Source: Desulfatibacillum sp. (GTDB lineage Bacteria > Desulfobacterota > Desulfobacteria > Desulfobacterales > SpSt-501). Taken from it: a stretch of 64,000 nucleotides of DNA. Position numbers and translations under genes: made by a program. Shown here piece after piece: positions 19,272 through 49,528 of the stretch. The notes below the pieces were generated by a model that was not told the origin of the DNA, did not search any database, and worked only from the letters and a program-made list of their open reading frames with translations. Numbering within the stretch: the first letter of the stretch is position 1; the number at the start of each line of letters is the position of its first letter. The stretch lies in the NCBI GenBank assembly GCA_020725555.1, contig DYEU01000021.1, forward strand, positions 91,403 through 155,402, read 5' to 3'.

Positions 19272-19423
19272 CCGTTTCGGGCGGGGTTGCGGGATGTCGC
19301 CGGGAAATCCGGGGCGAAAAGCAAAAGGCCTGCCATCAACCCGGCGGGTGCTGATGAGCCCTTGTGCAATGTCGCTGAGCGGGTCTTTCGTCTCCCCGCC
19401 GGGCGCACTCGCGCCGGGGAGCT

Positions 19424-32325: not shown

Positions 32326-32363
32326 TAAACAGATATGAAATATACCTGTTTATTAGGCCTAAT
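32326..32363. promoter_or_regulatory. Adjacent dyads between the two LuxR-type genes
   Basis: TAAACAG (32326-32332) pairs with CTGTTTA (32346-32352); extending inward gives 10 of 11 matched positions. Immediately next is a perfect 12-bp palindrome, ATTAGGCCTAAT (32352-32363), which overlaps the PAS-LuxR stop codon. The area is far more AT-rich than the surrounding DNA. It could be an operator for the GAF-LuxR gene or a weak terminator; no U-tract follows on the gene strand. Confidence 0.5.
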
Positions 32364-33783
32364 TGGATTCGTGGAGTGAGCTGAGAAAGCTTTTGAGGTT
32401 GTGGGTGCGTGCCGGTAGGTTCAGCTTGCGGCGGATGCGTTTGCGGTGGGTTTCGACGGTGCGCGGCGAGATGGACAACAATTGCCCGATTTCTTTGGTT
32501 GTTTTTCCGGAGCGGACCAGGGTGGCGATTTTGAACTCGGACGGCGTGAGGCGGCGCTGGATCTCTTCGAGCTGCAGGAGGTCCGGGGAGGTGACCTCGC
32601 GCAGGGCGTCTTCGAGAAGCTCGAGGTGCACCGCCTGACGGTGGTTGAGTCCGCTTTCCTTCAAGCTCTGGATGTGCGGCAGGGCAAGCTCGTGCAGCGC
32701 CCTCACGACGCGCCGGACCTGGCCCTCGCTTTCCTCGCGGCTTTTGCGCAGAACCACGTGGAGCGCGTTGTTGATCCGCGCGAGCTCCTCGGTCAGCGCC
32801 CGGAGCTCGGCCTCGGCCGTGCGCCGCGCCTCGGTTTCGCGGCGGAGTTCGGCGTTTGAACGCTCCAGCTCGGCCGTCCGCTCGCGGACGAGGCGGTCAA
32901 GCTCCTCGTTGAAGCGTCGCAGGCGCTCCTCGGAGGATTTCCGCTCGTGGATGTCGACATGCAGTCCGAAAGCCTGGAGCGGGACCCCCTCGACGCTTTT
33001 CGCGAAGACCCGGCCGATGCCGCGCACCCAGTGGTAGGAGCCGTCGCGGCGCCGCAGGCGGCCTTCCACATCGAAGGCCTCGCGGGAGCCGGAGAGCATT
33101 TCCTCGACCACCGCGGCCGCGGTGGCGCGCTCCTCGGGGTGAAGGAGTTCCTTCCAGGTCTCGTAGGTGACGGGAAACTCCTGCGGGGCGTAGCCGAGCA
33201 TGGTGTAATAGGAATCGTTGCAGCGCACGACCCCGCTCGTGATCTCCCATTCCCACCAGCCGATGGTGGCGCTCTCGGAGGCGAGGAGCACGCGCGCCTC
33301 GTTCAACTTGTGCGCCCGCTCCATGGTGCGCAGGTCGGTCACGTCGGTGACGGTCGAAAGAATGCAGTTCCTGCCCTCGAACTCGAAGAGACTGGCCGAC
33401 ATCAGGCCCCAGCGCAGCTCCCCTGTTTTGCGGCGGAAACGGAAGGGGTAGTTCGTGAGGGTACCCTCGCCGAGGAGCCGGCGGCGGATCTCGCGGCTGT
33501 CCTCGGGGTCGTCGTAGAAGCCGAAGTCGAGCGCCCGGCGCCCGATCAACTCCTCTTGCTTGTAACCCGTGAGCAGGCTTTCGCTTTCGCTCACCTCAAG
33601 GTAGCGGCCCTCATCGAAGGTGGTGATGGCAAGCCCGACCGGGCTGGCCTTGAGAAGGCGGCGGAATGCCCCCTCGGCTTCGAAAGGGAGACGGGAAGCG
33701 GCGGCCGTCAGGGAGCGGGAAGGAAAACCTGCGGCGGCGGGGTTCGGGGCGGAGTCGTCCTTTACGGATTCGGCGCGCGGCAT
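32359..33783 (-). CDS. PAS-domain LuxR-type transcriptional regulator
   Basis: A 474-residue regulator with two PAS/PAC sensor modules (about 35-160, ASPVGLAITTFDEGRYLEVS; about 175-285, ATIGWWEWEITSG). A long coiled coil (about 290-370) and a LuxR-type HTH follow (LTPSEFKIATLVRSGKTTKE, then ISPRTVETHRKRIRRKL). The track ORF starts 15 codons earlier on TTG; ATG 33783 is chosen. No kinase or receiver is present, so ligand or redox sensing acts directly. It is divergent from the tricarballylate genes. Confidence 0.87.
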   Translation of the reverse strand: MPRAESVKDDSAPNPAAAGFPSRSLTAAASRLPFEAEGAFRRLLKASPVGLAITTFDEGRYLEVSESESLLTGYKQEELIGRRALDFGFYDDPEDSREIRRRLLGEGTLTNYPFRFRRKTGELRWGLMSASLFEFEGRNCILSTVTDVTDLRTMERAHKLNEARVLLASESATIGWWEWEITSGVVRCNDSYYTMLGYAPQEFPVTYETWKELLHPEERATAAAVVEEMLSGSREAFDVEGRLRRRDGSYHWVRGIGRVFAKSVEGVPLQAFGLHVDIHERKSSEERLRRFNEELDRLVRERTAELERSNAELRRETEARRTAEAELRALTEELARINNALHVVLRKSREESEGQVRRVVRALHELALPHIQSLKESGLNHRQAVHLELLEDALREVTSPDLLQLEEIQRRLTPSEFKIATLVRSGKTTKEIGQLLSISPRTVETHRKRIRRKLNLPARTHNLKSFLSSLHESN

Positions 33784-33936
33784 CGACGCCCACGTGTTCG
33801 AGTTCGGAAAAGGGTTGGACAAGCGCAACCGAACGCGGAAAATCGCCTTTTACCCTAACCGAACCAGCTCAAGCGCGTCAAGAGATGTGGGCCCGGGTGG
33901 TGAGCCTCCGTCGCGCCGCCGGCCCGCGGTTGCCGC

Positions 33937-33953
33937 TGAAACAGATTGTTTCA
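33937..33953. promoter_or_regulatory. Activator dyad upstream of tcuAB
   Basis: TGAAACAGATTGTTTCA is a perfect seven-base inverted repeat with a three-base centre. It matches 13 of 17 positions of the dyad beside the PrpR-like gene (40937-40953). It lies about 110 bp before the predicted transcription start of tcuA, a normal distance for a sigma-54 activator site. Confidence 0.65.
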
Positions 33954-34027
33954 CCGGAGGGGTTCGCCCGTGCCACGCCGGCCGTGGTGTTTCCCGGCCG
34001 GCGGCGATTGCCGCCTGTCTTTCTTCC

Positions 34028-34043
34028 TGGTACGGTTCTTGTT
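34028..34043 (+). promoter_or_regulatory. Sigma-54 promoter of tcuAB
   Basis: TGGTACGGTTCTTGTT has GG at -24 and the correct 10-bp spacing to the -12 element, where GC is replaced by GT. It lies about 50 bp before the tcuA ATG. Confidence 0.65.
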
Positions 34044-34095
34044 AGACCGCAATTGCCGTTTTACGCCGGAGGCAACGACGAAAGGGCGGTTTGCC

Positions 34096-35505
34096 ATGAG
34101 CCTTGAAGATCCCCTGCGGCGGGAGGACTGCGACGTTCTCGTGATCGGCGGCGGAAACGCGGCGCTTTGCGCAGCGATGACCGCGGCCGAGGCCGGGGCA
34201 CGGGTCATCCTGCTTGAGAGCGCGCCCCGTTCCTTCCGCGGCGGAAACAGCCGCCACACGCGGAACCTCAGGTTCCTCCACAGAAAGCCCACCCCCTACC
34301 TCAAGGACGCCTATCTCGAGGAGGAGTTCTGGGACGACCTCATGCTGGTCACCGGCGGCAAGACGACCGAGGCCCTCGCGCGGCTCGTCATCCGCGAATC
34401 CGAGGACCTGGGCGAGTGGATGGAGGCCCACGGTGCCATGTTCCAGCCGCCGCTCCGGGGGACGCTGCATCTGGCGCGGACCAACGCCCATTTCCTGGGG
34501 GGCGGAAAGGCCCTCGTGAACGCCTACTACGCCACGGCCGCACGGCTGGGGGTCGAAATTCGCTACGAAGCCGAGGCGGTCGACCTCGAGGTGGAAAACG
34601 GCCGCTTTCGCTTCGCCCGCGTGCGTGAGCGGGGCGCGGAGCGCCTCGTTTCGGCCGCGGCCTGCGTGTGCGCCGCCGGGGGCTTCCAGGCGGATCTCGC
34701 CTGGCTGAAAGAGATCTGGGGCGAAGCGGCCGACCGCTTCGTCATCCGCGGCAGCCCCTTCGACACGGGCCGCGTGCTTCGCACCCTGCTTACGCGCGGG
34801 GCCAAGGCCGTGGGCGACCCCCGCCAGTGCCACGCGGTCGCGGTCGACGCGCGCGCGCCGCGCTTCGACGGCGGGATCGTCACCCGGCTCGACTGCGTCC
34901 CCTTCGGCATCGTGGTAAACCGCGAGGGAAAGCGCTTCTACGACGAGGGCGAAAACTTCTGGCCCAAGCGTTACGCGATCTGGGGCCGACTCGTCGCCGG
35001 GCAGCCCGGCCAGGAAGCGTTCTGCCTGATCGATGCCAAGGCGCTCCCTCTGTTCATGCCCTCGGTCTTCCCGCCGGTCACCGGCCGGACGATCGGCGAG
35101 CTCGCCGCGAACCTCGGGCTCCCGGTCGGCGCGGTCGAGGAGACGGTCGCCGCCTTCAACCGCGCGGTGCGCCCCGGACGCTTCGATCCGGCCCGCCTGG
35201 ATGACTGCGCGACCGAGGGGATCGCACCCCCGAAGAGCCATTGGGCGCAGCCGCTCGATTGCCCCCCCTTCTATGGCTACCCGCTCCGGCCCGGGATCAC
35301 CTTCACCTACCTCGGGGTCGCCGTGGACGAGCGGGCCCGCGTCTTGCGCGAGGATGGCCGGCCCTGCGAAAACCTGTTCGTCGCGGGCGAGATCATGTCG
35401 GGAAACATCCTCGGCCAGGGCTACATGGCGGGCTTCGGGATGACGATCGGGACCGTCTTCGGACGGATCGCGGGAAGGGAGGCCGCACGCCATGTCCGCG
35501 GATGA
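34096..35505 (+). CDS. tcuA: FAD-dependent tricarballylate dehydrogenase
   Basis: A 469-residue flavoprotein of the fumarate reductase/succinate dehydrogenase family that oxidises tricarballylate to cis-aconitate. Seen: the FAD motif VIGGGNAALCAAMTAAEAGA, the TcuA-like SRHTRNLRFLH segment and the C-terminal GEIMSGNILGQGYMAGFGM motif typical of TcuA. The track ORF starts 50 codons upstream; ATG 34096 is the family start. It overlaps tcuB by 14 bases. A sigma-54 promoter and a GAAAC dyad lie upstream. Close relatives that reduce fumarate-like acids exist, but the tcuB partner supports TcuA. Confidence 0.88.
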   Translation: MSLEDPLRREDCDVLVIGGGNAALCAAMTAAEAGARVILLESAPRSFRGGNSRHTRNLRFLHRKPTPYLKDAYLEEEFWDDLMLVTGGKTTEALARLVIRESEDLGEWMEAHGAMFQPPLRGTLHLARTNAHFLGGGKALVNAYYATAARLGVEIRYEAEAVDLEVENGRFRFARVRERGAERLVSAAACVCAAGGFQADLAWLKEIWGEAADRFVIRGSPFDTGRVLRTLLTRGAKAVGDPRQCHAVAVDARAPRFDGGIVTRLDCVPFGIVVNREGKRFYDEGENFWPKRYAIWGRLVAGQPGQEAFCLIDAKALPLFMPSVFPPVTGRTIGELAANLGLPVGAVEETVAAFNRAVRPGRFDPARLDDCATEGIAPPKSHWAQPLDCPPFYGYPLRPGITFTYLGVAVDERARVLREDGRPCENLFVAGEIMSGNILGQGYMAGFGMTIGTVFGRIAGREAARHVRG

Positions 35506-36589
35506 GCTGCTCCGGGAAGCCGAGCGGGTGATGACGATCTGTAACGCCTGCCGCTACTGCGAAGGCTTCTGCGCCGTGTTCCCGGCGATGGAGCTGCGGC
35601 GGACCTTTGCGGCCGAAGAGTTGCGCTACCTCGCCAACCTCTGTCACAACTGCCGCGGCTGCTGGTACGCCTGCCAGTACGCGCCGCCGCACGAGTTCGC
35701 CGTGAACGTGCCGCGCGCGCTCGCCGCGCTGAGGCGCACGACCTGGCAGGAATTCGCGCGGCCGAAGCGGTTCTCCGGGCTCTTTCGCCGCAACGGCCTG
35801 GCCGTCTTAGCGGCCGGGCTCGCGGCGGCGGCGGTCTTTCTCCTCTGGGGGGCCCTGTCCGCCGAAAGCGGCCTCTGGGCGGCCCGGTCGGGCGCCGGCG
35901 CCTTCTACCGCGTCATCCCCTACGGCGCGATGCTGGGTGTTTTTTCGGCGCTGGCGCTGGGGGCGCTCGCTGCGCTCGCGGCCGGGCTCTTCTCGTTTCT
36001 CAGGCAGACGGGCACGAAGGCCTCCGAGTTCTTCGCCCCGGGTCACCAACTTCGCGCCCTGAAGGACGTCCTCCGGCTCACCTACCTCGAAGGCGGAGGC
36101 CACGGCTGCAACTACCCCGACGAGCGCTTCCGCCACGGGCGGCGCCGGCTCCACCACCTCGTCTTCTACGGCTTCCTCGCGGCGTTCGCCTCGACCACGG
36201 CCGCGGCCTTCTACGACCACGTTCTCGGGCTTCCCGCCCCTTACCCGTGGTTGAGCCTGCCGGTCCTCCTCGGCCTTGGCGGCGGCCTGGCGATGACGGC
36301 GGGGCTCTGCGGGTTGATGGTTCTCAAGGCCCGGATGGACCACGAACCGGCCGACGAGGAGGGCCGCGGGATGGAGCTTGCGTTCTTGGGCCTTCTGCTG
36401 GCGGTGAACGGGACCGGGCTTCTTCTCCTCTTCTTGCGCGAAACCGCGGCCATGGGCGTTCTCCTGGCGCTGCACCTCGCCGCGGTTGCGGCCTTCTTCG
36501 CCCTCCTTCCGTACGGCAAGTTCGTGCACGCCCTCTACCGCTGGGCGGCCCTGGTCAAGAACGCATCCGAGCAGAGCAAGGCGGGCTAA
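35492..36589 (+). CDS. tcuB: Tricarballylate-utilisation electron-transfer protein TcuB (CitB-like)
   Basis: A 365-residue membrane protein that reoxidises the FADH2 of TcuA and passes electrons to the quinone pool. The N-terminus has two ferredoxin-like cysteine clusters (CNACRYCEGFC and CHNCRGCWYAC). Six or so hydrophobic segments with conserved His (RLHHLVFYGFLAAFAS) follow, as in heme-b/quinone binding subunits. The start overlaps the end of tcuA, so translation is coupled. A tcuC-type transporter is absent; the TctCBA system nearby probably substitutes. Confidence 0.88.
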   Translation: MSADELLREAERVMTICNACRYCEGFCAVFPAMELRRTFAAEELRYLANLCHNCRGCWYACQYAPPHEFAVNVPRALAALRRTTWQEFARPKRFSGLFRRNGLAVLAAGLAAAAVFLLWGALSAESGLWAARSGAGAFYRVIPYGAMLGVFSALALGALAALAAGLFSFLRQTGTKASEFFAPGHQLRALKDVLRLTYLEGGGHGCNYPDERFRHGRRRLHHLVFYGFLAAFASTTAAAFYDHVLGLPAPYPWLSLPVLLGLGGGLAMTAGLCGLMVLKARMDHEPADEEGRGMELAFLGLLLAVNGTGLLLLFLRETAAMGVLLALHLAAVAAFFALLPYGKFVHALYRWAALVKNASEQSKAG

Positions 36590-36606
36590 CCCCTCCCGCC
36601 CCCGGC

Positions 36607-37689
36607 TCAGGCGGCGCGCAGGGCCTCTTTCACCGCGGCCGCCGCCGCCTGCGGCCCCCCCTCCACACCGCCCTCCCTCGTGAACGGGATCCGTCCTGCG
36701 GCGCAAGCGCGGCGCACGGCGCTCTCCAGCCTTGCGGCGGCATGGGTTTCGCCCAGGTGATCGAGCATCAGGGCGGCCGCGCGGATCTGCGAGAGGGGGT
36801 TGGCGAGCCCCTTGCCCGCGATCGCGGGGGCGGAGCCGTGGATCGGCTCGAAGCAGGCCGCCTCTTCGCCCACGTTCGCCGCGGCGCAAAGGCCCAGCCC
36901 GCCCACGGTCGCGGCCCCGAGGTCGCTGAGGATGTCGCCGAAGAGGTTTTCGGTCACGATCACGTGGAAGCCCTGCGGCCGCGAGACGAGCGCGGCCGCG
37001 GCGGCATCGACGTAGAGGCAGTCGGCCTCGACTTCGGGAAACTCGGAGGCGACCTCGAGAAAGATCCGGCGGAAGAAGGCAAAGGAACGAAGGACGTTGC
37101 TCTTCTCGACGAGGGTCACGCGACGCCTGCCGTCCGCGGGCGCCCCTGCGGGTCGCGAAAGGGCGCTCTGGAAGGCGAAGCGCGAAATCCTCTCGCAGCC
37201 CGCCGCGGTGAGAAGAAGCGTGTCCGCCGCCGCCTGGCGGGTCACAAGACCCAGACCGCGCGCGAGGTAGAGCCCCTCGGTGTTCTCGCGCACGATCACG
37301 TAGTCGATCGAACCCGGCGCATGACCGGCGAGCGGGCCGGGGACCCCCGGCAGGAGGGCGATCGGCCGCACGTTCGCGTAGAGGTCGAAGCCGACGCGCA
37401 GGATCCCGCCGAGAAGCCCCGCCTCGGTCCCGTCCGGCCGGCGCACGTCGGGCAGCCCGACCGGGCCTTTGAAGGCGCAGCGCGCGCGCCGGAAGGCCTC
37501 GAGGGCTTCCGGCAGGATCGCCTCGCCCGTTTCGCGGTAGAGGGCGGCCCCCGCGCGGTGGAACTCGAGCTCGAGCCGGAAGGTGCCCATGGCCTCTTCC
37601 AGGGCCTGCAGCACCTCGAGTGCGGCATCCACGATCTCCGGGCCGATCCCGTCCCCCGGGAAGACGACGACGCGGTGGGTTCTCCTCAT
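36607..37689 (-). CDS. Isopropylmalate/isocitrate-type beta-decarboxylating dehydrogenase
   Basis: A 360-residue NAD(P)-dependent enzyme of the IPMDH/IDH/tartrate dehydrogenase family. Seen: VVFPGDGIGPEIVDAALEVL, VIVRENTEGLYLARG, VTLVEKSNVLRS (catalytic Lys), VTENLFGDILSD (metal Asp) and EPIHGSAPAIAGKG. The VRENTEG loop is closer to isocitrate/tartrate than to isopropylmalate (RELTGG) enzymes, but the substrate cannot be settled. The start ATG 37689 overlaps the isomerase stop by four bases. No leuCD genes are nearby, so leucine synthesis is unlikely; a tricarboxylate-derived hydroxyacid is proposed. Confidence 0.8.
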   Translation of the reverse strand: MRRTHRVVVFPGDGIGPEIVDAALEVLQALEEAMGTFRLELEFHRAGAALYRETGEAILPEALEAFRRARCAFKGPVGLPDVRRPDGTEAGLLGGILRVGFDLYANVRPIALLPGVPGPLAGHAPGSIDYVIVRENTEGLYLARGLGLVTRQAAADTLLLTAAGCERISRFAFQSALSRPAGAPADGRRRVTLVEKSNVLRSFAFFRRIFLEVASEFPEVEADCLYVDAAAAALVSRPQGFHVIVTENLFGDILSDLGAATVGGLGLCAAANVGEEAACFEPIHGSAPAIAGKGLANPLSQIRAAALMLDHLGETHAAARLESAVRRACAAGRIPFTREGGVEGGPQAAAAAVKEALRAA

Positions 37690-38852
37690 GGCCGCCCCTC
37701 CGCGAAGAGCCGCTCCGGGACGAGGACGAAGCCTTCCATCAGGCGCCGTGCCGTCCGCCCCACGACCCCCTCTTCGTAGACGATCCCGCCGCCCGTTTCC
37801 GCAACCCGCGCCTCGGCCTCGATCCGGCCGCTCGGGTGGCCGATCACGACGCGCGCCGGGTTTTCCGCCGCAACCCGCGCCACCTCGCTCACGACCGTCC
37901 CCGGGATGCGTGCCGCGCCGGCGGTGGCGATCGCCCCGCTCACGGCGTAGGCGCGGTGGAGGGAGCCCATGGACATCATGCGCGCAACCAGGGTGATCTT
38001 CCCGGCGGCGACCGGCCGTCCGTTGACCGCCACGTAGTCGGCCGGCGGGCCGACCGCGGCCACCTTGGGGACGGCCTGGTTGAGCCGGCCCGCCTCCTCG
38101 AGCGAGGAGGCGATCCCCATCGCCACCGCGGCCTGACGGCGCACGGCCTCGAGCGCCTCGCCAAGCGCCGCACTCCGCTCGAAGGGCTCGATCTCGGCGC
38201 CGGGGACGCCGAGCGCGTCGGCGCGCACGAAGACGAAGGGGTTTGCGGCATCGATGCAGGTCGCCGCGATCGTTTTCCCGCCGGGGAGCGTGAAGCGGTC
38301 CTGGCGCGCGCCCGTGGGGAAGAGCGATTTGGTGACCGCGCCCTCGGGCCGGACGAAGTGCAGCCGGATCCGGGAGCCGGGAAAGGGGACCCCGTCGATT
38401 TCGAAATCGCCCGTCTCGAGGAAGCGGCCGTCGCGCACCGGGACCTCGGCCACGATGAGCGTGTCGGTGTTCTCCTGGTGGATGCGGACCCGGCTGAAGG
38501 GTTCGACGGCCGGGACGAGACCCTCGTCCACGGCGAAGGGACCGACCGCGGCGGATAGGTTCCCGCAGTTTCCCCGGAAATCGACCTCGGGGCGATCGAT
38601 CGCCACCTGGCCGAAGCGATAGACCACGTCGTAGCCGGCTGCGCTGGCGGGCCGGATGATGGCCGCCTTGCTCGTCTGACTCGCCCCGCCCCCCACGCCG
38701 TCGGTCTGCCGGCGGAAGGGGTCCGGGCTGCCGTAGGCGGCGAGCAAGATGCGCTCGACAAGGTTCGCGTCGCTGGGGAGGTCGCGCTCGTGGAAAAAAA
38801 GCCCGCGGCTGGTCCCGCCGCGCATGAGAACGGAACGGATGCGTCTCACCAT
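37686..38852 (-). CDS. PrpF-family cis/trans isomerase (aconitate isomerase-like)
   Basis: A 388-residue protein of the PrpF family, diaminopimelate-epimerase fold. Seen: the N-terminal RSVLMRGGTSRGLFF signature, the FRGNCGNLSAAVGPFA segment with the active-site Cys, and RMMSMGSLHRAYAVSGAI. PrpF isomerises 2-methylaconitate, and relatives act on trans-aconitate or oxalomesaconate. No prpBCD genes are present, whereas tricarballylate and isocitrate enzymes are, so trans-/cis-aconitate is the favoured substrate (inference). GAGGAGGAG precedes the ATG, and a textbook sigma-54 promoter lies 80 bp upstream. Confidence 0.85.
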   Translation of the reverse strand: MVRRIRSVLMRGGTSRGLFFHERDLPSDANLVERILLAAYGSPDPFRRQTDGVGGGASQTSKAAIIRPASAAGYDVVYRFGQVAIDRPEVDFRGNCGNLSAAVGPFAVDEGLVPAVEPFSRVRIHQENTDTLIVAEVPVRDGRFLETGDFEIDGVPFPGSRIRLHFVRPEGAVTKSLFPTGARQDRFTLPGGKTIAATCIDAANPFVFVRADALGVPGAEIEPFERSAALGEALEAVRRQAAVAMGIASSLEEAGRLNQAVPKVAAVGPPADYVAVNGRPVAAGKITLVARMMSMGSLHRAYAVSGAIATAGAARIPGTVVSEVARVAAENPARVVIGHPSGRIEAEARVAETGGGIVYEEGVVGRTARRLMEGFVLVPERLFAEGRP

Positions 38853-38929
38853 GGGTTCTCCTCCTCGGTGTCGTTTCGGGATGCAAAAAACCGGTGCGGA
38901 CCCTTCGCGCGTCCGCGCGGAACAGGGAG

Positions 38930-38945
38930 AGCAAAACCGGTGCCA
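38930..38945 (-). promoter_or_regulatory. Sigma-54 promoter of the isomerase-dehydrogenase operon
   Basis: The reverse strand reads TGGCACCGGTTTTGCT: perfect TGGCAC and TTGCT boxes at the correct spacing. A GCGGAC/GTCCGC dyad lies between it and the isomerase start. Confidence 0.8.
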
Positions 38946-38962
38946 GGGGCGTGCCTTGCGCC

Positions 38963-40936
38963 TCAGGCGGCATCGAGCCCGAGCGCCCGCAGCCGGCGCC
39001 AGAGGGTGGTGCGGCTCACTCCGAGTGCGGCCGCCGTGCGGCGGCGGTGGAAACGGTTTCGCATCAGGGCCTGGAGAAGCTCTGCCGCCTCGCCTCCCGG
39101 TGTCTGTCCCCCCGTCGCCGCAGCCGGGGTGTCCGGGCGCGCGCCGCTTCCCGCGGGGGGCGGACCTGCGCCGTCCGTCGGCGGGGGGGCGGCGATGCGC
39201 AGCAGCTCCGCGTAAAGGTGCGCGAGCATCTCGGGGTCGCAGGAGAGACTGCAGTTCAACACGAGGCGCTCGGCGAAGTTCTTCAGCTGGCGCACGTTGC
39301 CGGGCCAGGGGTAGTCGGCGAGCTTCGCGAGGTAGCCGCGGGGCAGCGTGATCGGCCGGACGCCTTCGCGGCCGCAGAACGCGCGGATGAAGTGGGAGAG
39401 GAGAAGCCCGATGTCCTCGCGCCGCTCGCGCAGCGGCGGGATGGGCAGCCGGAGCACGTTCAGGCGGAAGAAGAGGTCGGGCCGGAAGCGGCCCTCGCGC
39501 AAGGGTCCTTCAAGCTCGCGGCTTGCGGCCGCGATCACGCGCACGTCAACGGGGATGACGCGGTCGCCGCCGACGCGCATCACCTCCCCCTCCTGCAGCA
39601 CGCGGAGCAGCCGCAATTGCATCGCCTCGGAGGTCGAGTCGATCTCGTCCAGAAAGATCGTCCCCTGGTGCGCCAGCTCGAAGCGGCCGGGTTTCCCGCC
39701 GCGGCGCGAGCCCGTGAAGGCGCCCTCCTCGTGGCCGAAGAGTTCGCTTTCGAGCAGCGGCTCGGGGAGCGCAGCGCAGTTGATCGAGACGAAGGGAAAT
39801 CGGCTTCTGCGGCTCAGGCGGTGGATGCCGTGGGCGAAGATCTCCTTGCCCGTCCCGGTCTCCCCGATGAGCAGGACGGTCGAGTCCGTGCGCGCGTACT
39901 GGCGGGCGCGCTCGACCGCCCGGCGCATCGCGGGGCTGCGGTGGACGAGGAGCTCGAGCCCGTATTTCGCGCTCAGCCCCGAGGAGAGCGCGCGGCGGAC
40001 CGCGTGCTCCGAGCGCATGACCCCGCCGATGTCGCGGAAGGTGGAGACCGCGCCGATCGTCTCGCCGTCGAGAAGAATGGGGCGGTCGCTGAAGACGAAG
40101 CGTTCGCCGTGGAGCTGGTCGATGCGGTCCTGGACGGGGGCGGGGGTCTCCAGAATGCGCGGCACGGGGCTCTGCGGCAGAAGCTCGGCCACGGCGCGGC
40201 CGAGGATCTTCTCCCCGGGCAGCCGGAGCGCGCGGCAGGCGGCGGCGTTGGCGACGATCGCGCAGCCGGCGGTGTCGAAGGCGAGGATCCCGTCGGAGGC
40301 GGCGTCGATCACCGCCTGGTAGCGGCGGGCGACGGCGCGCTGCTCGCGGCCGGCGAGCGCGACCGAGACGGCGTTGTCGAGCGTCGCGGCGAGGTCCTCG
40401 TCCGAGGTGCGGATCTCGAAGAAGGCAAGGCCGTGGCGTTCGGCGAAGCGCTGCGTCACCCCGCCCCCGACCACCGCCGCGCAGCCGCGGCGCACGCCGG
40501 TGGCGATCGCGCGGCCCAGGCTCTCGCGGTCGCGGTAGAGCCCCTGGAGGATTTCGATCCCCAGGACCTCCTCGAGGATCTCGACCCCGGAGAGGGGGCG
40601 GCGGAAGACGGGAAGAAGGATCTTGCGGCCGCGGGAGGAGGCTTGCCTCAGACTGACGAGGAGATCGAGCGAGCGGTGCGGAAAGGAAAGAACGGGGATC
40701 CGCAGGCTCTCGCGCAGGAGATGGGCCGTGCCGCGGCGGCCGACCGCGACCTCGATCCCCTGCTCCTCCATCGCGCGGGCCGCGGGAAGGGCGTCTTCCA
40801 GGCCCCGGGTGCTGAGCGTGAGCTCGATGTGGCGTCGCTCGCCCAGGGCGCGGATGCGCTCGACGAGCGAGGGGCTCGAGGCGAAGACGCCGATCCGCAC
40901 CCGGCGCGAGGTCAGGGAGGGGGGACGTTTCATCAT
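38963..40936 (-). CDS. PrpR-type sigma-54-dependent transcriptional activator
   Basis: A ~657-residue enhancer-binding protein. A PrpR-like N-terminal sensor (about 10-190) is followed by a PAS region (about 200-310). The AAA+ domain has Walker A GETGTGKEIFAHG, the sigma-54 contact loop GAFTGS, LDEIDS and the arginine-finger FFRLNVLRLP segment. A Fis-type HTH (RRRTAAALGVSRTTLWRRL) ends it. The track start (40954) is a GTG inside a dyad; ATG 40936 or 40933 is preferred, with no visible ribosome site. It sits at the centre of the island, divergent from tctCBA-icd, and should sense a tricarboxylate and activate the three sigma-54 promoters. Confidence 0.9.
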   Translation of the reverse strand: MMKRPPSLTSRRVRIGVFASSPSLVERIRALGERRHIELTLSTRGLEDALPAARAMEEQGIEVAVGRRGTAHLLRESLRIPVLSFPHRSLDLLVSLRQASSRGRKILLPVFRRPLSGVEILEEVLGIEILQGLYRDRESLGRAIATGVRRGCAAVVGGGVTQRFAERHGLAFFEIRTSDEDLAATLDNAVSVALAGREQRAVARRYQAVIDAASDGILAFDTAGCAIVANAAACRALRLPGEKILGRAVAELLPQSPVPRILETPAPVQDRIDQLHGERFVFSDRPILLDGETIGAVSTFRDIGGVMRSEHAVRRALSSGLSAKYGLELLVHRSPAMRRAVERARQYARTDSTVLLIGETGTGKEIFAHGIHRLSRRSRFPFVSINCAALPEPLLESELFGHEEGAFTGSRRGGKPGRFELAHQGTIFLDEIDSTSEAMQLRLLRVLQEGEVMRVGGDRVIPVDVRVIAAASRELEGPLREGRFRPDLFFRLNVLRLPIPPLRERREDIGLLLSHFIRAFCGREGVRPITLPRGYLAKLADYPWPGNVRQLKNFAERLVLNCSLSCDPEMLAHLYAELLRIAAPPPTDGAGPPPAGSGARPDTPAAATGGQTPGGEAAELLQALMRNRFHRRRTAAALGVSRTTLWRRLRALGLDAA

Positions 40937-40953
40937 GGAAACGTTTTGTTTCA
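40937..40953. promoter_or_regulatory. Activator/autoregulatory dyad between the PrpR-like gene and tctCBA
   Basis: GGAAACGTTTTGTTTCA has GAAAC and GTTTC arms separated by five bases, as in the tcuA-upstream dyad. A second overlapping arm (CGTTTC-N6-GAAACG) extends into the regulator's start codon. It is about 130 bp upstream of the tct transcription start and abuts the regulator ATG, so it could serve both activation and autorepression. Confidence 0.65.
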
Positions 40954-41051
40954 CAAGCGGCGCGCGATGTCAACCGCTACGGCCGCGCGGGAGGGCGCGG
41001 CGGAGCGGGCAGTCGCGGCCGCCCGCGGCGCGGTGGGCGGCGGTACGGGAT

Positions 41052-41067
41052 TGGCACGAATCCTGTA
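41052..41067 (+). promoter_or_regulatory. Sigma-54 promoter of tctCBA-icd
   Basis: TGGCACGAATCCTGTA has a perfect -24 box and a GT in place of GC at -12, the same deviation as the tcuA promoter. The tctC start codon lies about 170 bp downstream. Confidence 0.65.
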
Positions 41068-41234
41068 GAGAGGGCTTGAAGATCAATTCAATGTCTGAAG
41101 AGTGATTGACAACGCCGGGTGGTTTTACGATACTCGGACCCGTCCCTGCGCCGCCCCTTCACCCGATGAGGCGGCCCGGCGGGTTGCATTGCCGCGGTCA
41201 ACCCGTCACCCCAGCGGAAAGAAGGAGGAACGCC

Positions 41235-42215
41235 ATGAACAGGACGCTTTGCTTTGCTCTCGCCGGTCTTCTTGCGTTTGCCCTGGGGGGCGGCCCGTGC
41301 GCCGGGAACGTGGCGGCGGCGGACTACCCCGAGCGGGCGATCGAGGTCGTCGTCCCCTTCGGGGCGGGCGGCGGGAGCGATACCGCCGCGCGCGCCGTGG
41401 TCGAGGGGATGAAGCCGCTGCTCAAGCACGGGGTCGTCGTCACCAACATGCCGGGCGGTGGCGCGACCAAGGGGATGCTTCACGTGAGCCAGCAGCCGGC
41501 CGACGGCTACACGGTGCTCGCGGTGACGACTTCGCACCTGATCGACGCCGTCAAGCCCAAGACCCGGGCCCACATCCTGAACGACTTCGATCCCCTGTGC
41601 CGCATCCAGTGGGACACCTCCGGGGTGATCGTCTCCGGGGACTCCAAGTTCAAGACGCTCGAGGAGCTGATCGATTACGGCAAGAAGAACCCGAAGATGC
41701 TCAAGTTCGCCGGCACCTCGCCGGGCGGCTGGTCCGAAATCCAGACCGTCGCCTTCTTCAAGACGGCGGGCGTGCAGGTGACCTTCGTCCCCTTCGACTC
41801 CGGGGCCGAGATCAAGGCCGCGATCCTGGGCGGCCACATCCACGGCGCGGTCGAGGAGCTGGCCGAGACGCTGCCCCTCATCCAGGCGGGCAAGCTTCGT
41901 GCGCTCTGCGTGATCATGGACAAGCGGCACCCGGCGCTCCCCGATGTTCCCTCCTCGGTCGAGTGCGGGCTCAACTACACCCACGGCCTCATGCGCGCCT
42001 GGGCCGTGAAGAAGGGCACCCCGCCGGAGCGGCAGAAATTCCTGCTGGAGGTCATCCGGAAAGCGCTCGAGAACCCGACCTACGTGAAGTACATCAAGGA
42101 AAATCACCTCGACGTGCGCCCGGGCTACCTCGGCCCCCAGGAGACGCGGAAATACTGGGAAGAGGAGATCGCCTTTTTCGCCGAGGTGTTGAAGGATCTG
42201 GGCTACGTGAAATAG
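41235..42215 (+). CDS. tctC: Tripartite tricarboxylate transporter substrate-binding protein TctC
   Basis: A 326-residue periplasmic binding protein of the TctC/Bug family. A signal peptide (about 1-32, ending NVAAA) precedes the family opening YPERAIEVVVPFGAGGGSDT. Also seen are NMPGGGATKGMLHVSQQPADGYT and the FVPFDSGAEIKAAILGGHI ligand-pocket region. Bug proteins bind citrate, other di/tricarboxylates or nicotinate; with tcuAB and icd here, a tricarboxylate is likely. AAGGAGGA precedes ATG 41235. First gene of tctC-tctB-tctA-icd. Confidence 0.9.
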   Translation: MNRTLCFALAGLLAFALGGGPCAGNVAAADYPERAIEVVVPFGAGGGSDTAARAVVEGMKPLLKHGVVVTNMPGGGATKGMLHVSQQPADGYTVLAVTTSHLIDAVKPKTRAHILNDFDPLCRIQWDTSGVIVSGDSKFKTLEELIDYGKKNPKMLKFAGTSPGGWSEIQTVAFFKTAGVQVTFVPFDSGAEIKAAILGGHIHGAVEELAETLPLIQAGKLRALCVIMDKRHPALPDVPSSVECGLNYTHGLMRAWAVKKGTPPERQKFLLEVIRKALENPTYVKYIKENHLDVRPGYLGPQETRKYWEEEIAFFAEVLKDLGYVK

Positions 42216-42318
42216 ATCCCGGGGGCGATATCGGCTCCGGCAGAGGGATCCACGCAGGGCGCGGGAGGGCGGAGCGGCGTGCGCTTCCGCGCCCTTCCCC
42301 GGAAGGGCGGGTGTCCGC

Positions 42319-42828
42319 ATGAAAACGAAGGGGGAGGTTGTCTTCTTTGCGGTCTGTGTCGCGTTCTTCGGCTTCATGGGCGCCCAGGCGGTCGCCCTGA
42401 TGGGCGAGGGCCGGGCGGGCGAGATCGGAAGCGCGCTCTGGCCGCTGATCGCTCTTTGCGCCGCGCTCGGGCTGAGCGCGGTGCTCCTGTTCCAGGCCGT
42501 CCGCCGCCCCGCCGCCGCGGCCGTGGGGGGGGAAGCCTCCGAACCGGACGCGAGAGATGAGGCGCGAAGGCGGCGCAAGGCCGTGGTCGCGAGCACCGCC
42601 TGCTTTTTTCTCTACCTCGTCGCCATTTCCTTCCTCGGCTTCATCCTGGCGACCCTGTTCTTCATCCCGGCCTTCGCCTTCGCGCTCGGGGAGCGGCGAA
42701 CGAAGGTCCTCGTCGCCGCCCCCCTCATTCTCACGACGGTCATGACCGCCGTGTTCATCAAGTTTCTCACCATCCCCTTTCCCAAGGGAGTGGGGGTGTT
42801 CGCCGCGTTCAGCCGGCTTTTTTACTGA
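42319..42828 (+). CDS. tctB: Tripartite tricarboxylate transporter small membrane subunit TctB
   Basis: A 169-residue membrane protein with four hydrophobic segments (about 7-27, 40-60, 90-110 and 115-155), ending in the TctB-like FIKFLTIPFPKGVG segment. It is the poorly conserved small subunit that pairs with TctA. The link rests on size, topology and position between tctC and tctA. Confidence 0.87.
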   Translation: MKTKGEVVFFAVCVAFFGFMGAQAVALMGEGRAGEIGSALWPLIALCAALGLSAVLLFQAVRRPAAAAVGGEASEPDARDEARRRRKAVVASTACFFLYLVAISFLGFILATLFFIPAFAFALGERRTKVLVAAPLILTTVMTAVFIKFLTIPFPKGVGVFAAFSRLFY

Positions 42829-42855
42829 GGCCGGGCCGCGGGGCCGGGAGGCGCT

Positions 42856-44349
42856 ATGCTCGAGATCTACGGCCAGGCGTTCGCCACGGTGCTTTTGCCC
42901 CAGAACCTGATCGCCATGGTCCTGGGCGCCCTCTGGGGGCTTCTTGCGGGGGCGCTGCCCGGCATCAGCACCTCGATGGGGGTCGTCCTCATCCTTTCCT
43001 TCACCTACACCTTGGCGCCCATGACCGCCTTGGTCCTCTTGGTGGGCGCCTACCTGGGCGGGATCACGGGGGGCGGGATCACCTCCATCCTCTTCGGGAT
43101 CCCGGGCGAGCCCTCCTCGGTGCCGACGGTGATCGAGGGCCACGCGCTCGCCAAGCAAGGCAAGGCCGCCGCCGCCATGTGGACCTACCTTCTGTGCTCC
43201 ATTTTCGGCGGCCTCTTCAGCGTCCTTTTCATGATCGTCGCCACCCCGTTGATCGCCGATTTTGCGCTGCGCTTCGGGCCGGCGGAGTACTTCGCGCTCA
43301 CCATCCTGGGGCTGAGCGTCGTCTCGGGGCTCTCGGGCGGCTCGATGCTCAAGGGGTTTCTCTCCTGTTTCTTCGGGCTGTTTCTCGCGACGATCGGCAC
43401 CGACGGGATCACGGGGGAAGAGCGCTTCACCTTCGGGACGGTGACGCTGCTCGGCGGGGTGAACTTCGTGGTGGCCATGGTGGGGTTGCTCGCCGTCTCC
43501 GAGATCATGATGGAGGCCGAGGAGCCCTTCAAGGAATACAAGGGCATGGTCGAGTATCGCGGCCTGCTTGAGGAGCTGCCGCGCTTTTCGCTCTTCCGCA
43601 AGTACTGGCTCACGATGATCCGCTCGCCGATCATCGGCACGATCGTGGGCGCGCTCCCGGGGGCGGGGGCGACGATTGCGGCCTTTCTCGCCTACGGCGA
43701 GGCGGCGCGCACGGCGAAGCACGAGCCCGCGAAATTCGGCAAGGGGGCGATCGAGGGCCTGATGGCGGCCGAGTGCGCCAACAACGCCTCGACCGGCGGG
43801 TCGATGACGATTCTCTTGTCGCTGGGGATCCCCGGGAGCAACACGACGGCCATGCTGGTGGCCGCCTTCATGATCCACGGCATGCAGCCGGGGCCGCTTC
43901 TTCTCTCCCAGCGGCCGGATATCGTCTACGGCATCTTCACGGCGATGATCGTGATCAACCTGCTCCTGCTGGCGATCACCGGGACCGCAATCCGGCTGTT
44001 TCTGCAGCTCAACCGCCTGCCCTACTCGGTCTTCTCCGCCGCGATCCTGATCCTCTGCGTGGTCGGCGCCTTCGGGATCAACAACAGCGTGGACGACATG
44101 ATGCTCATGTTCGTCTTCTCGCTGATCGGCTATTTCATGAGGAAGTTCGGGGTGCCGGTCGCGCCCTGCATCCTCGCGCTCGTGCTGGGGGATCTCGCCG
44201 AGCTCTCGCTCCGGCGGGCGCTGCTCCTCTCGGGGGGAAGCCCGCTCGGGCTCGTCTCCAGCCCGATCAGCGCGGTATTGCTCTTGGGAGCGCTCGTCTC
44301 CATCGTTTACCCCCTGATCAAGAAGCCCAAGATGCTCGCAAGTTCCTGA
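42856..44349 (+). CDS. tctA: Tripartite tricarboxylate transporter large permease TctA
   Basis: A 497-residue permease with about 12 membrane segments and the two TctA signatures: LAGALPGISTSMGVVLILSF near the N-terminus and IGTIVGALPGAGATIAAFLA in the middle. NNASTGGSMTILLSLGIPGS follows. It moves the TctC-bound carboxylate using the ion gradient. AGGCGCT precedes the ATG. Length is standard. Confidence 0.94.
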   Translation: MLEIYGQAFATVLLPQNLIAMVLGALWGLLAGALPGISTSMGVVLILSFTYTLAPMTALVLLVGAYLGGITGGGITSILFGIPGEPSSVPTVIEGHALAKQGKAAAAMWTYLLCSIFGGLFSVLFMIVATPLIADFALRFGPAEYFALTILGLSVVSGLSGGSMLKGFLSCFFGLFLATIGTDGITGEERFTFGTVTLLGGVNFVVAMVGLLAVSEIMMEAEEPFKEYKGMVEYRGLLEELPRFSLFRKYWLTMIRSPIIGTIVGALPGAGATIAAFLAYGEAARTAKHEPAKFGKGAIEGLMAAECANNASTGGSMTILLSLGIPGSNTTAMLVAAFMIHGMQPGPLLLSQRPDIVYGIFTAMIVINLLLLAITGTAIRLFLQLNRLPYSVFSAAILILCVVGAFGINNSVDDMMLMFVFSLIGYFMRKFGVPVAPCILALVLGDLAELSLRRALLLSGGSPLGLVSSPISAVLLLGALVSIVYPLIKKPKMLASS

Positions 44350-44382
44350 GCAGGGCCGCATGGCACGGGAAGGAGAGACCGC

Positions 44383-45582
44383 ATGGCGAAAACCCGGGTG
44401 AAGACGCCGCTCGTCGAGCTCGACGGCGACGAGATGACGCGCATCATCTGGGCGTGGATCAAGGAGAAGCTGATCCTCCCCCACCTCGATGTCGAGCTCA
44501 AGTACTTCGATCTCGGCATCCAGACGCGGGATGCGACCGAGGACCGGGTCACTGTGGAGGCGGCGCACGCGATCCGCGAGTACGGCGTCGGGGTCAAGTG
44601 CGCGACGATCACGCCGGATGCCGAGCGGGTCGCCGAGTACGGCCTCAAGAAAGCCTGGCCCTCGCCCAACGGCCAGATCCGCTCCATCCTGGACGGGACC
44701 GTCTTCCGCAAGCCGATCCTCGTGTCCAACATCCGGCCCGCCGTGCGGAGCTGGAAAAAGCCGATCGTCGTGGGCCGGCACGCCTACGGCGACCTCTACC
44801 GCGGGGTCGAACTCGCCGTCGACCGGCCCGGCCGGGTGGAGATGGTGTACCGGCCCGAAGCGGGCGGCGAGGAGCGGCGGCTGGTGGTCCACGAGTTCAA
44901 GGGCCCCGGGATCGTGATGGGGATCCACAACCTGGACGGCTCGATCCGCTCCTTTGCGCGCTCCTGCATCGCGCTTGCGCTGAGCGAGAAGATCGATCTC
45001 TGGTTTTCGACCAAGGACACGATCAGCAAGGTCTACCAGGGGCGCTTCAAGGAGATCTTCGCCGCGGAGACCGCGGCGCGGCGCGAGGAGTTCGCGCGGG
45101 CGGGGATCGGCTACCGCTACCTGCTGATCGACGATGCGGCGGCCCAGGCCCTCAAGCACGAGGGGGGCTTCCTCTGGGCGCTCAGCAACTACGACGGCGA
45201 TGTCTTCTCGGATGTGGTGGCCGCGGGGTTCGGGAGCCTCGGGATGATGACCTCGGTGCTGGTGAGCCCGGAGGGGAAGTTCGAGTTCGAGGCCGCCCAC
45301 GGCACGGTGCGCCGCCACTACTACGAGCACCGGAAGGGCAACCCCACGAGCACGAACTCGGTCGCCTCGATCTTCGCCTGGAGCGGGGCGCTGCGGAAGC
45401 GCGGAGAGCTGGACGGCACCCCCGAGGTCGTCGCCTTCGCCGACCGCCTGGAGCGGGCGGTGCTGGGCTGCATCGAGGAGGGGATCGTGACCCGCGACCT
45501 CGTGCCCCTGATGGAGCCGCAGCCGGCGGGCTGGCAGACGACCGAGGGCTTCATCGAGGCCGTGGCCGCACGGCTGGCCTGA
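44383..45582 (+). CDS. icd: NADP-dependent isocitrate dehydrogenase (eukaryote-like type)
   Basis: A 399-residue isocitrate dehydrogenase that makes 2-oxoglutarate and CO2. It belongs to the IDH1/IDP-type subfamily, seen from [68 protein letters not shown] and [15 protein letters not shown]. It lies 33 bases after tctA, so the transporter and the enzyme are co-regulated by the sigma-54 activator. This may be an island-specific copy; whether the genome has another icd cannot be seen. A GC-rich hairpin (45600-45619) separates it from the convergent transpeptidase. Confidence 0.93.
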
Positions 45583-47039: not shown

Positions 47040-48071
47040 TCATCTCCGGGCAAGCGGCCGTCGCGTGCCGACGCCGCGGCGCAGAGCCTCCACGCCTTCC
47101 GGCATCGGGTGGGCGGCGGCGCGGGTGATGCAGGAGGTGCTGACCCCCAGGTGACGGGCCACCTCGGCCCCGGAGTAGCCAAGATCGCGCATGGCGAACC
47201 AGGAGAGCGCGGTGCGGGCTTCCACCACGGGGCGGCGGCGGCTTCCGCCGAGGAGCTCCCCTGCGGAGACGCCCCAAGCCTCGCAGGCGCGGCGGCAGAC
47301 CGAGGCGATGTCGGGGCGTGGCCCATCCAAAAGGAAGTTCCGCCGTTGCCGCATTTCCATGCGCTCGATCATCTTCGCGACAAACCGTCGGTCGCCCAGG
47401 ATGCACCGTTCCGCGGTCGAGCGATACCCGTGGCGGTGGCGCCGGGAGGTGACCTCCGACCAGCCTCCCCAGGAGGGAAGCGAAAGCCGCTCGAGCCCGA
47501 GGTCTCCCGGCGGACGGGGGATCCCGTCGGCGATGAAGCGGTTGTAGGCCGTGCGGGCCGCCCTGCGCGTGGGTGCAAAGAAGGAAAGCACCCGGTCGGT
47601 CTCCTGCCAGGGGCGGGGGACGCGGCCGAGGAGGGCGCTGTGGCCGCTCCAGGGCCAGCGGCCGAGTTCCTCGAGGCTGCCCACGATCCCCGCCCGCAGC
47701 GGGTTCAGGTGGATGTAGCGCACGAGTTCCCTGAGATAGGGCTCCTTCTGGCAGAGCAGGGAGCGGAAACGGTTCTGGAAGAGGTGCCCGCTCCGGCCGT
47801 GGCGCTTGTTGAAGGCGACCGCGTAGCCGGTGAGGAGCCGATGCATGGTCGAGGAGAGGGACAGGGCCGCCGACTCGCACAGGAGGTGGACGTGGTTCGA
47901 GAGAAGCGCCCAGGCGTAAATGTGCACGGCCCCCTCCGCGGCGAGCCGGCCGAGGCGGGCGAGGAAACGGTCCCGGTCCTCGTCGTCGTGAAAGAGGGGG
48001 CGCCCCTCGATCCCGCGGGCGATGACATGGTGCAGGGCCCCGGGAGCATCGATACGCGCTGCACGCGGCAT
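47040..48071 (-). CDS. REP-associated tyrosine transposase (RAYT, Y1_Tnp domain)
   Basis: A 343-residue single-copy transposase of the IS200/IS605-related RAYT group. The Y1_Tnp domain (about 1-150) has the HUH pair in LLSNHVHLL and the GHLFQNRFRSLL and YIHLNPLRAG segments. The C-terminus has a DnaA/Trp-repressor-like helix-turn-helix (YSGAEVARHLGVSTSCITRA). The family start MPRAARIDAPGALHHVI puts the ATG at 48071; the track ATG 48080 adds three residues. A GGACGTC-ATTGT sequence at the start resembles the five repeats elsewhere. No terminal inverted repeats or paired IS ends were found. Confidence 0.87.
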   Translation of the reverse strand: MPRAARIDAPGALHHVIARGIEGRPLFHDDEDRDRFLARLGRLAAEGAVHIYAWALLSNHVHLLCESAALSLSSTMHRLLTGYAVAFNKRHGRSGHLFQNRFRSLLCQKEPYLRELVRYIHLNPLRAGIVGSLEELGRWPWSGHSALLGRVPRPWQETDRVLSFFAPTRRAARTAYNRFIADGIPRPPGDLGLERLSLPSWGGWSEVTSRRHRHGYRSTAERCILGDRRFVAKMIERMEMRQRRNFLLDGPRPDIASVCRRACEAWGVSAGELLGGSRRRPVVEARTALSWFAMRDLGYSGAEVARHLGVSTSCITRAAAHPMPEGVEALRRGVGTRRPLARR

Positions 48072-48143
48072 GGACGTCATTGTAACGTTTTTGTTTTGTC
48101 CGGTAAAGCAATTTCTGCATCAACGTCCCTATTCTTTTTTCGG

Positions 48144-48178: not shown

Positions 48179-49528
48179 ATGCAGGAGGCGATCCGGAAGC
48201 TGCTCGAACGGGATGCAGGGGAGCGGGAGTTCCAGCAGGCCGTGCGCGAGGTGCTGGGAACCGTGGCGCCGTTTCTCGCGCGCCTGCCGCAGCCTGTCGC
48301 CCAGGGGCTGCTCGAGCGCATCGTCGAGCCCGAGCGCGTCGTCTCCTTCCGCGTCCCCTGGGTGGACGACCGCGGCCGCACCTGCGTCAACCGCGGTTTT
48401 CTCGTGGAGATGAACAACGCCCTGGGCCCCTTCAAGGGGGGGCTGCGCTTTCACCCCTCGGTCACGCAGAGCATTCTCAAGTTTCTCGCCTTCCAGCAGG
48501 TCTTCAAGAACGCCCTGACCGGTCTGCCGCTGGGCGGCGGGGCGGGCGGCGCGGACTTCGACCCCAAGGGGAAATCCGACGCCGAAGTCATGCGCTTCTG
48601 CACGGCCTTCATGCAGGAGCTCTACCGCCATGTCGGCCCGCGGGTGGACATCCCCGGGGGCGACATCGGGGTCGGCGCGCGCGAGATCGGATATCTCTTC
48701 GGCGCCTACCGCCGCCTCGCCAACCGTTTCGAGGGGGCGCTCACGGGCAAGGGGCTCGCCTGGGGCGGAAGCCTCTTCCGGGCCGAGGCCGCGGGCTACG
48801 GCTGCGTCTACTTCGCATCCGAGCTCCTCGCCTCGCGGGGCCTCGGCCTCGAAGGGCAGGTCTGCCTCGTCTCCGGCTCGGGGAACGTCGCCCAGCACAC
48901 GGCCGAGCAATTGATCCGCTCCGGGGCCCGGGTGGTGACGCTCTCCGATTCCTCGGGTCACATCTACGACCGCGACGGGATCGACGGGGAAAAACTCGCC
49001 TTCGTCAAGCACCTGAAAAACGTGCGCCGCGGCCGCATCCGCGAGTACGTCGAGAAATACCCTTCGGCCGTCTATGTGCCGGTCGACCCCAGCCTCGATC
49101 ATCACCCCATCTGGAGCCATAGGGCGGATCTCGCCTTCCCTTGCGCCACGGAAAACGAGATCGGCGAGCAGGACGCCTACCGCCTGATCAACCACCCGAT
49201 CAAGCTCGTCTGCGAGGCGGCGAACATGCCCTGCACGCCCGAGGCCGTCCAGATCTTCGCCGGCAAGCACATCCTGTTCGCCCCGGGCAAGGCGGCGAAC
49301 GCGGGCGGTGTCGCCGTGAGCGGGCTCGAGCTCGTGCAAAACAGCATGCGGCTCTCCTGGCAGGGCGAGGAGATCGACGCCCGCCTCAAACTCCTCATGA
49401 AAGGCATCTACCGCACCTGCCTCGAGGCGGCCGAGGCCTACGGCTGCCCCGGCGATCTCCTCCGCGGGGCGAACCTCGCCGCCTTCGAAAAAGTGGCCAA
49501 CGCCATGCTCGACCAGGGCGTGGCCTGA
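48179..49528 (+). CDS. gdhA: NADP-type glutamate dehydrogenase homologue with altered catalytic lysine
   Basis: A 449-residue hexameric-type glutamate dehydrogenase (2-oxoglutarate + NH4 to glutamate). Conserved: PFKGGLRFHPSV (substrate Lys), ILKFLAFQQVFKNAL, DIPGGDIGVGAREIGYLFG (catalytic Asp), VSGSGNVAQHTAEQLI and FAPGKAANAGGVAVSGLE. However, the usual GGGKGG catalytic motif reads GGGAGGADFDPKGKS, with Ala at about residue 122 where family members carry the catalytic lysine (K125 of the Clostridium symbiosum enzyme). It could be a variant clade, an inactive form or a sequencing error. No strong ribosome site precedes the ATG. Confidence 0.88.
   Translation: MQEAIRKLLERDAGEREFQQAVREVLGTVAPFLARLPQPVAQGLLERIVEPERVVSFRVPWVDDRGRTCVNRGFLVEMNNALGPFKGGLRFHPSVTQSILKFLAFQQVFKNALTGLPLGGGAGGADFDPKGKSDAEVMRFCTAFMQELYRHVGPRVDIPGGDIGVGAREIGYLFGAYRRLANRFEGALTGKGLAWGGSLFRAEAAGYGCVYFASELLASRGLGLEGQVCLVSGSGNVAQHTAEQLIRSGARVVTLSDSSGHIYDRDGIDGEKLAFVKHLKNVRRGRIREYVEKYPSAVYVPVDPSLDHHPIWSHRADLAFPCATENEIGEQDAYRLINHPIKLVCEAANMPCTPEAVQIFAGKHILFAPGKAANAGGVAVSGLELVQNSMRLSWQGEEIDARLKLLMKGIYRTCLEAAEAYGCPGDLLRGANLAAFEKVANAMLDQGVA

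Follow-up and report, generated by a model that had tools for sequence, protein, structure and literature searches.

Can a bacterium related to sulfate reducers take up external tricarboxylates and feed them into central metabolism through a single, jointly controlled set of genes? The question is raised by positions 33937-45582 of a 64-kb stretch of Desulfobacterales DNA, the whole of which we call the window. Our preferred answer, to which we assign a probability of about 0.72, is that these genes form a regulated island through which the cell uses external tricarboxylates, the likeliest being tricarballylate and trans-aconitate, with all its units switched on together.

The window has a GC content of 68% and lies on contig C15 of a 3.59-Mb genome (G000) estimated to be 100% complete. 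The host, affiliated with the Desulfobacterales, encodes dsrA (623 bits against a cut-off of 393) and one copy of rpoN. Family scans find the nine genes proposed in the initial annotation to be present and intact within 33937-45582, and agree with the names given there. The order is tcuA-tcuB; dh-prpF on the minus strand, dh being a beta-decarboxylating dehydrogenase; the gene for a PrpR-like sigma-54 activator (hereafter prpR); and tctC-tctB-tctA-icd. The overlaps between tcuA and tcuB (14 bases) and between prpF and dh (4 bases) make it likely that each pair is co-translated. On the left, a PAS-LuxR type regulator (32359-33828) is divergent from tcuA and, as far as examined, outside the conserved set. 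Near the right edge lies an IS200-like (Y1) transposase family gene (47040-48080), followed by a glutamate dehydrogenase family gene (48179-49528), 2.6 kb past icd and upstream of groES-groEL-like genes, whose product would consume 2-oxoglutarate made by Icd.

The tricarballylate system of Salmonella enterica, tcuRABC, is treated in PMC10468695 and in Lewis et al. 2004 as cited in PMC5566214. The FAD-dependent tricarballylate dehydrogenase TcuA (34096-35505, plus strand) scores 693 bits against NF006130 (cut-off 369) and 608 against TIGR02485 (cut-off 373). TcuB (35492-36589, plus strand), a 4Fe-4S membrane protein predicted to carry electrons from TcuA to quinone, reaches 395 bits against TIGR02484 (cut-off 247); its score against PRK15033, 399 bits, is under the cut-off of 524, and its match to QmoC is weaker, at 101 bits. 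Neither a TcuC carrier of the MFS type nor a LysR-type TcuR is found beside tcuAB, where the neighbors are the Tct genes, the PrpR-like activator and the PAS-LuxR protein. This agrees with the proposal that TctCBA and a sigma-54 activator take the place of the Salmonella carrier and regulator.

The transporter genes encode the periplasmic solute-binding protein TctC (41235-42215; PF03401, 137 bits), the small membrane subunit TctB (42319-42828; PF07331, 64 bits) and the large membrane subunit TctA (42856-44349; PF01970, 473 bits), all on the plus strand, so that the three families of a tripartite tricarboxylate transporter lie within one operon. Five further TctA copies occur elsewhere in the genome, and Tct family membership alone therefore says little about the substrate. 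A second tctCBA cluster, on contig C17 (L060:5551-13256), is accompanied by a GAF-type sigma-54 activator, a LarA-family gene and a galactarate/altronate-dehydratase-like gene, with a strong sigma-54-like site before tctC.

The PrpF-family isomerase (37686-38852, minus strand; PF04303, 392 bits) is closest among solved proteins to PrpF (287 bits), followed by 3-methylitaconate isomerase (271 bits), and is below both NCBIfam equivalog cut-offs (339 bits of 441 for PrpF and 298 of 440 for oxalomesaconate tautomerase). Its Lys62, in a TSK motif, and Cys96, in GNCGN, align with K73 and C107 of the solved Shewanella PrpF, which isomerizes trans-aconitate in dependence on these two residues (PMC5690661). 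PrpF-superfamily aconitate isomerases, together with a transporter and a regulator, constitute a described trans-aconitate system, homologues of which have been reported in Thermodesulfobacteriota and Desulfovibrio porci (PMC11495376).

The two dehydrogenases part company. Icd (44383-45582, plus strand) is an NADP-type isocitrate dehydrogenase (NF006156, 614 bits against a cut-off of 335) with the Ser-x-Asn substrate motif in the form SPN, and the proposed link to 2-oxoglutarate holds through this enzyme. It is the only isocitrate dehydrogenase of the genome, the other PF00180 members being LeuB, a tartrate-dehydrogenase-like protein and dh. The genome also has two citrate synthase family genes. 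Icd may therefore be a housekeeping enzyme as well, its gene perhaps with an internal promoter; exclusive sigma-54 control of the sole isocitrate dehydrogenase gene in a genome with citrate synthase would be odd.

The second dehydrogenase, dh (36607-37689, minus strand; PF00180, 293 bits), has no NCBIfam equivalog above cut-off. In a 16-sequence tree, which gives a coarse placement, it groups with the dehydrogenases of isopropylmalate, D-malate and tartrate (IPMDH, DmlA and TDH) at 100/100, apart from five isocitrate dehydrogenases. All five of these references have Ser-x-Asn, whereas in dh the Asn is replaced throughout by Gly; on tree and motif together, we reject a second isocitrate dehydrogenase. 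The claim that both dehydrogenases serve the route from aconitate to 2-oxoglutarate is thus not supported for dh. A substitute role for icd is likewise disfavored, with both genes occurring in the window and in a syntenic relative (L009); another locus, L014, has a 37-residue icd match at its contig end. The protein retains invariant residues that catalysis in this superfamily should require. A structure predicted for it (mean pLDDT 64, with residues 72-107 below 50) is poor near the active site and was set aside. The enzyme probably acts on a malate-type acid.

Nor is the island self-contained, as it had been described, given that it includes no aconitase. The sole non-LeuC aconitase of the genome, identified by PF00330 only, is encoded at C28:119011; a second PF00330 gene, on contig C9, adjoins LeuB and is taken as LeuC.

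The evidence is strongest for the control of the island, as judged from the predicted sites. The activator (38963-40954, minus strand, with ATG codons at 40936 or 40933 as possible true starts) combines PrpR_N (96 bits), PAS, sigma-54 AAA (Sigma54_activat, 213 bits) and Fis-type helix-turn-helix (HTH_8, 32 bits) domains, all over cut-off. Against the PrpR equivalog TIGR02329 it scores 358 bits, below the cut-off of 499. This score and the additional PAS domain mark it, on domain content, as PrpR-like and not PrpR.

We scanned both strands of the window (128 kb of strand) for -24/-12 elements, using weights based on the published consensus that serve for ranking only. The best predicted site, TGGCACCGGTTTTGCT (38930-38945, minus strand), precedes prpF-dh; the third best, TGGTACGGTTCTTGTT (34028-34043, plus strand), precedes tcuA; and the fourth, TGGCACGAATCCTGTA (41052-41067, plus strand), precedes tctC. 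The second-best site, at 19320 on the minus strand, is just past a tRNA-His/tRNA-Arg pair and has no obvious target gene. The chance of finding three of the top four sites within 657 bp upstream of tcuA, prpF and tctC is about 5e-7 under uniform placement; restricting sites to intergenic DNA, with 12% as its assumed share of the window, raises it to about 3e-4.

All three sites are kept in the orthologous upstream regions of L009 and L016. Across loci that hold a prpR-like gene, and that share ancestry and so are not fully independent, a score of at least 10 is found in 21 of 36 regions upstream of tcuA, prpF, tctC or acn, compared with 4 of 83 upstream of other genes from the same loci (Fisher P 3e-10). 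In aconitase-first operons (L027, L033, L034 and L047), the strong site stands before the aconitase gene instead. The predicted sigma-54/PrpR-type control of every unit is thus sustained by top-ranking sites that relatives conserve. The picture of three units around one activator holds, each unit having one sigma-54-like promoter, with one correction: prpR runs in the same direction as prpF and dh, and the prpF promoter sits in the 110-bp gap behind prpR.

Two palindromes lie upstream of the tcuA and tctC promoters. The first base of the island, 33937, opens a perfect palindrome, TGAAACAGATTGTTTCA (33937-33953), with arms TGAAACA and TGTTTCA around GAT, a candidate activator site for tcuAB. 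It is kept in L009 (TGAAACAGGTTGTTTCA) and has one weaker arm in L016 (GGAACGTTTTGTTTCG). The second, GAAACGTTTTGTTTC (40938-40952), is a candidate site between prpR and tctC and is conserved in both L009 (GAAACATTATGTTTC) and L016 (GAAACAATATGTTTC). Of the five GAAAC-N5-GTTTC matches in the whole genome, these two are the only non-coding ones; the remaining three are inside coding sequence. In the loci with a prpR-like gene, again related by descent and not fully independent, there are 15 palindromes in 42 kb of non-coding DNA versus 4 in 183 kb of coding DNA. Several TGAAAC/GTTTCA half-sites are present in the prpR-prpB region of Escherichia coli, suggesting that the island activator probably reads a PrpR-like half-site. 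The prpF promoter has no clear palindrome of its own. The palindrome-like GAAACGGTTTC at 39050, within the part of prpR that encodes the helix-turn-helix, is not kept in L009 and was taken as a chance occurrence.

The nearest named relatives with the gene set are metagenome-assembled genomes of Desulfobacterales, and other matches include Desulfosarcina, Desulfacinum, Desulforhopalus and Desulfovibrio; a related set is present in Desulforhopalus vacuolatus DSM 9700 and a related tcuAB cluster in Desulfosarcina widdelii PP31, both of them cultured. Synteny is full in L009 and L050 and extends to the contig end in L016 and L052, and the architecture recurs in about 12 loci, in line with the expectation that the linkage of tcuAB to prpF, tct, icd and a prpR-type gene would be conserved elsewhere. 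Most tcuAB relatives lack at least one island gene, many of their contigs being short. Of 46 related loci, many of them on short contigs, 18 have an aconitase-family gene close to tcuAB. One locus (L049) reads tctCAB - prpR - tcuAB - prpF - acn - korDABC - icd.

Further neighborhoods are seen in Desulfovibrio. In L028:10037-21430 and L030:10016-21377, tcuAB is followed by genes for a DcuC-type carrier, an aconitase-family hydratase and NADP-Icd, then by korDABC and the beginning of sucC, and L029:5647-15934 has tcuAB, a DcuC-type carrier, Icd, 2-oxoglutarate:ferredoxin oxidoreductase, sucC and a next gene taken as sucD. These loci, from Desulfovibrio An276 (L028), the rumen metagenome-assembled genome RUG514 (L029) and the CO.B31 bin (L030), would represent a near-complete operon from tricarballylate or aconitate to succinate. 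Two gut Desulfovibrionaceae loci (L033:2474-9945 and L034:508-7978) have the order aconitase - tcuAB - citE - citF, which suggests citrate lyase as another outlet for tricarballylate. The recurrence of aconitase, Icd, kor, sucC and citrate lyase genes beside tcuAB points to aconitate as the shared node. Among sporadic neighbors across loci are AFOR family, AbrB family and LarA genes.

From the observed gene identities, promoters, palindromes and conservation, we infer a substrate, an inducer, a direction of flow and an operator function. TctCBA would import the acid, although its ligand is not readable from sequence. TcuA would convert tricarballylate to cis-aconitate, with TcuB passing the electrons to menaquinone, and the PrpF-family isomerase would supply cis-aconitate from trans-aconitate. 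The aconitase encoded elsewhere would then make isocitrate, and Icd would turn this into 2-oxoglutarate for central metabolism; in other genomes the cluster extends further, to 2-oxoglutarate:ferredoxin oxidoreductase and succinyl-CoA ligase in some and to citrate lyase in others. On sensing a tricarboxylate, the PrpR-like activator would bind the palindromes of TGAAAC half-sites close to the tcuA and tctC promoters and activate all three units, tcuAB, prpF-dh and tctCBA-icd, together from their sigma-54 promoters. Against this reading stand the missing aconitase, the presence of dh, which the route does not explain, the want of a clear palindrome at prpF, the oddity of a sole Icd gene under sigma-54 control alone, and the incomplete gene sets of most relatives.

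Menaquinone in anaerobes has a low potential, which would favor the reduction of a fumarate-like acceptor and would suit a different direction of flow, which we regard as unlikely. The island would serve trans-aconitate and TcuAB would run in reverse: part of the aconitate would be oxidized through isocitrate and 2-oxoglutarate, and part would act as electron acceptor and be reduced to tricarballylate, which is excreted. The Desulfovibrio loci in which a DcuC-type carrier and an oxidative branch follow tcuAB (L028-L030) fit this scheme, as does the presence of cluster relatives in rumen Desulfovibrio (L029 and L035). PrpF-family isomerases include proven aconitate isomerases (PMC11495376), and rumen bacteria that reduce trans-aconitate to tricarballylate are on record (Russell 1985, as cited in PMC5566214). 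However, TcuA and TcuB are far above cut-off for the curated family of the oxidizing Salmonella enzyme, an organism with dsrA would probably use a sulfur compound as acceptor, and no sequence feature marks the direction. A more specific version, slightly more doubtful still, makes TcuAB an aconitate reductase that lets trans-aconitate be disproportionated to tricarballylate and central metabolites, with the PrpR-like protein as aconitate sensor. If true, it would provide candidates for the genes behind a conversion long known from the rumen, that of trans-aconitate to tricarballylate.

The placement of dh on the isopropylmalate/D-malate/tartrate side, alongside a true icd both here and in L009, raises a further and rather improbable alternative, in which the main substrate is another acid, such as citrate, a methylated tricarboxylate or a substituted malate; TcuAB would be only one entry, and dh-prpF would handle that other acid. 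Orthologues of dh with about 64% identity are found in one other family of the phylum, where a strong TcuA match is lacking. Two adjoin 2-oxoacid:ferredoxin oxidoreductase (L080:5185-8568 and L082:6835-9560), and one is beside LeuCD-like, PrpB-like and Tct (TctCBA) genes (L081:10758-15707); these three loci would represent an acid pathway that includes a dehydrogenase of this kind. The nearly equal distance of the isomerase, itself under both equivalog cut-offs, from PrpF and 3-methylitaconate isomerase also accords with such a substrate. Against it, some loci (L026, L049 and L088) unite tcuAB, prpF, acn and icd in the absence of dh, which again points to aconitate as the shared node. Accidental adjacency of genes that form no single regulon is very improbable: many relatives carry only part of the set, but synteny is preserved in the four loci named above (in L016 and L052 up to the contig end), and promoters and palindromes are conserved.

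On the preferred reading, a jointly regulated island for tricarballylate and trans-aconitate, the activator, sites, promoters and genes make up a testable regulon, read from the genome, for the use of these acids in relatives of sulfate reducers. The parts are known, but we met no description of such wiring for these bacteria in the open literature searched, nor any paper there joining tricarballylate with PrpR or taking tricarballylate use in sulfate reducers as its topic. In Desulfovibrio of the gut and rumen, the survey also finds tcuAB beside genes for aconitase, Icd, 2-oxoglutarate oxidoreductase or citrate lyase.

Set beside known systems, the island resembles Salmonella tcuRABC in its adjacent, overlapping tcuA and tcuB, whose products exceed curated cut-offs, and differs in having TctCBA and a sigma-54 activator without TcuC or a LysR-type TcuR, and in adding a PrpF-family isomerase, dh and icd. 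With tarRAB of Bacillus velezensis (PMC11495376) it shares a PrpF-superfamily isomerase accompanied by a transporter and an activator; tarRAB relies on an MFS importer and TarR, whereas the island has TctCBA, a sigma-54-dependent activator and tcuAB. It meets the reviewed TctCBA transporters (PMC5812351) in the three subunit families of one operon, and departs from them in the linkage to tcuAB. Like the prpR-prpBCDE and acnD-prpF systems of E. coli and Shewanella (PMC5690661), it combines a PrpR_N and sigma-54 activator with TGAAAC half-sites and a PrpF family protein with conserved Lys and Cys. Unlike these propionate systems, it has no methylcitrate synthase, methylcitrate dehydratase or methylisocitrate lyase, and the genes under predicted control are tricarboxylate genes, which suggests that the reach of PrpR-type activators can extend beyond propionate use.
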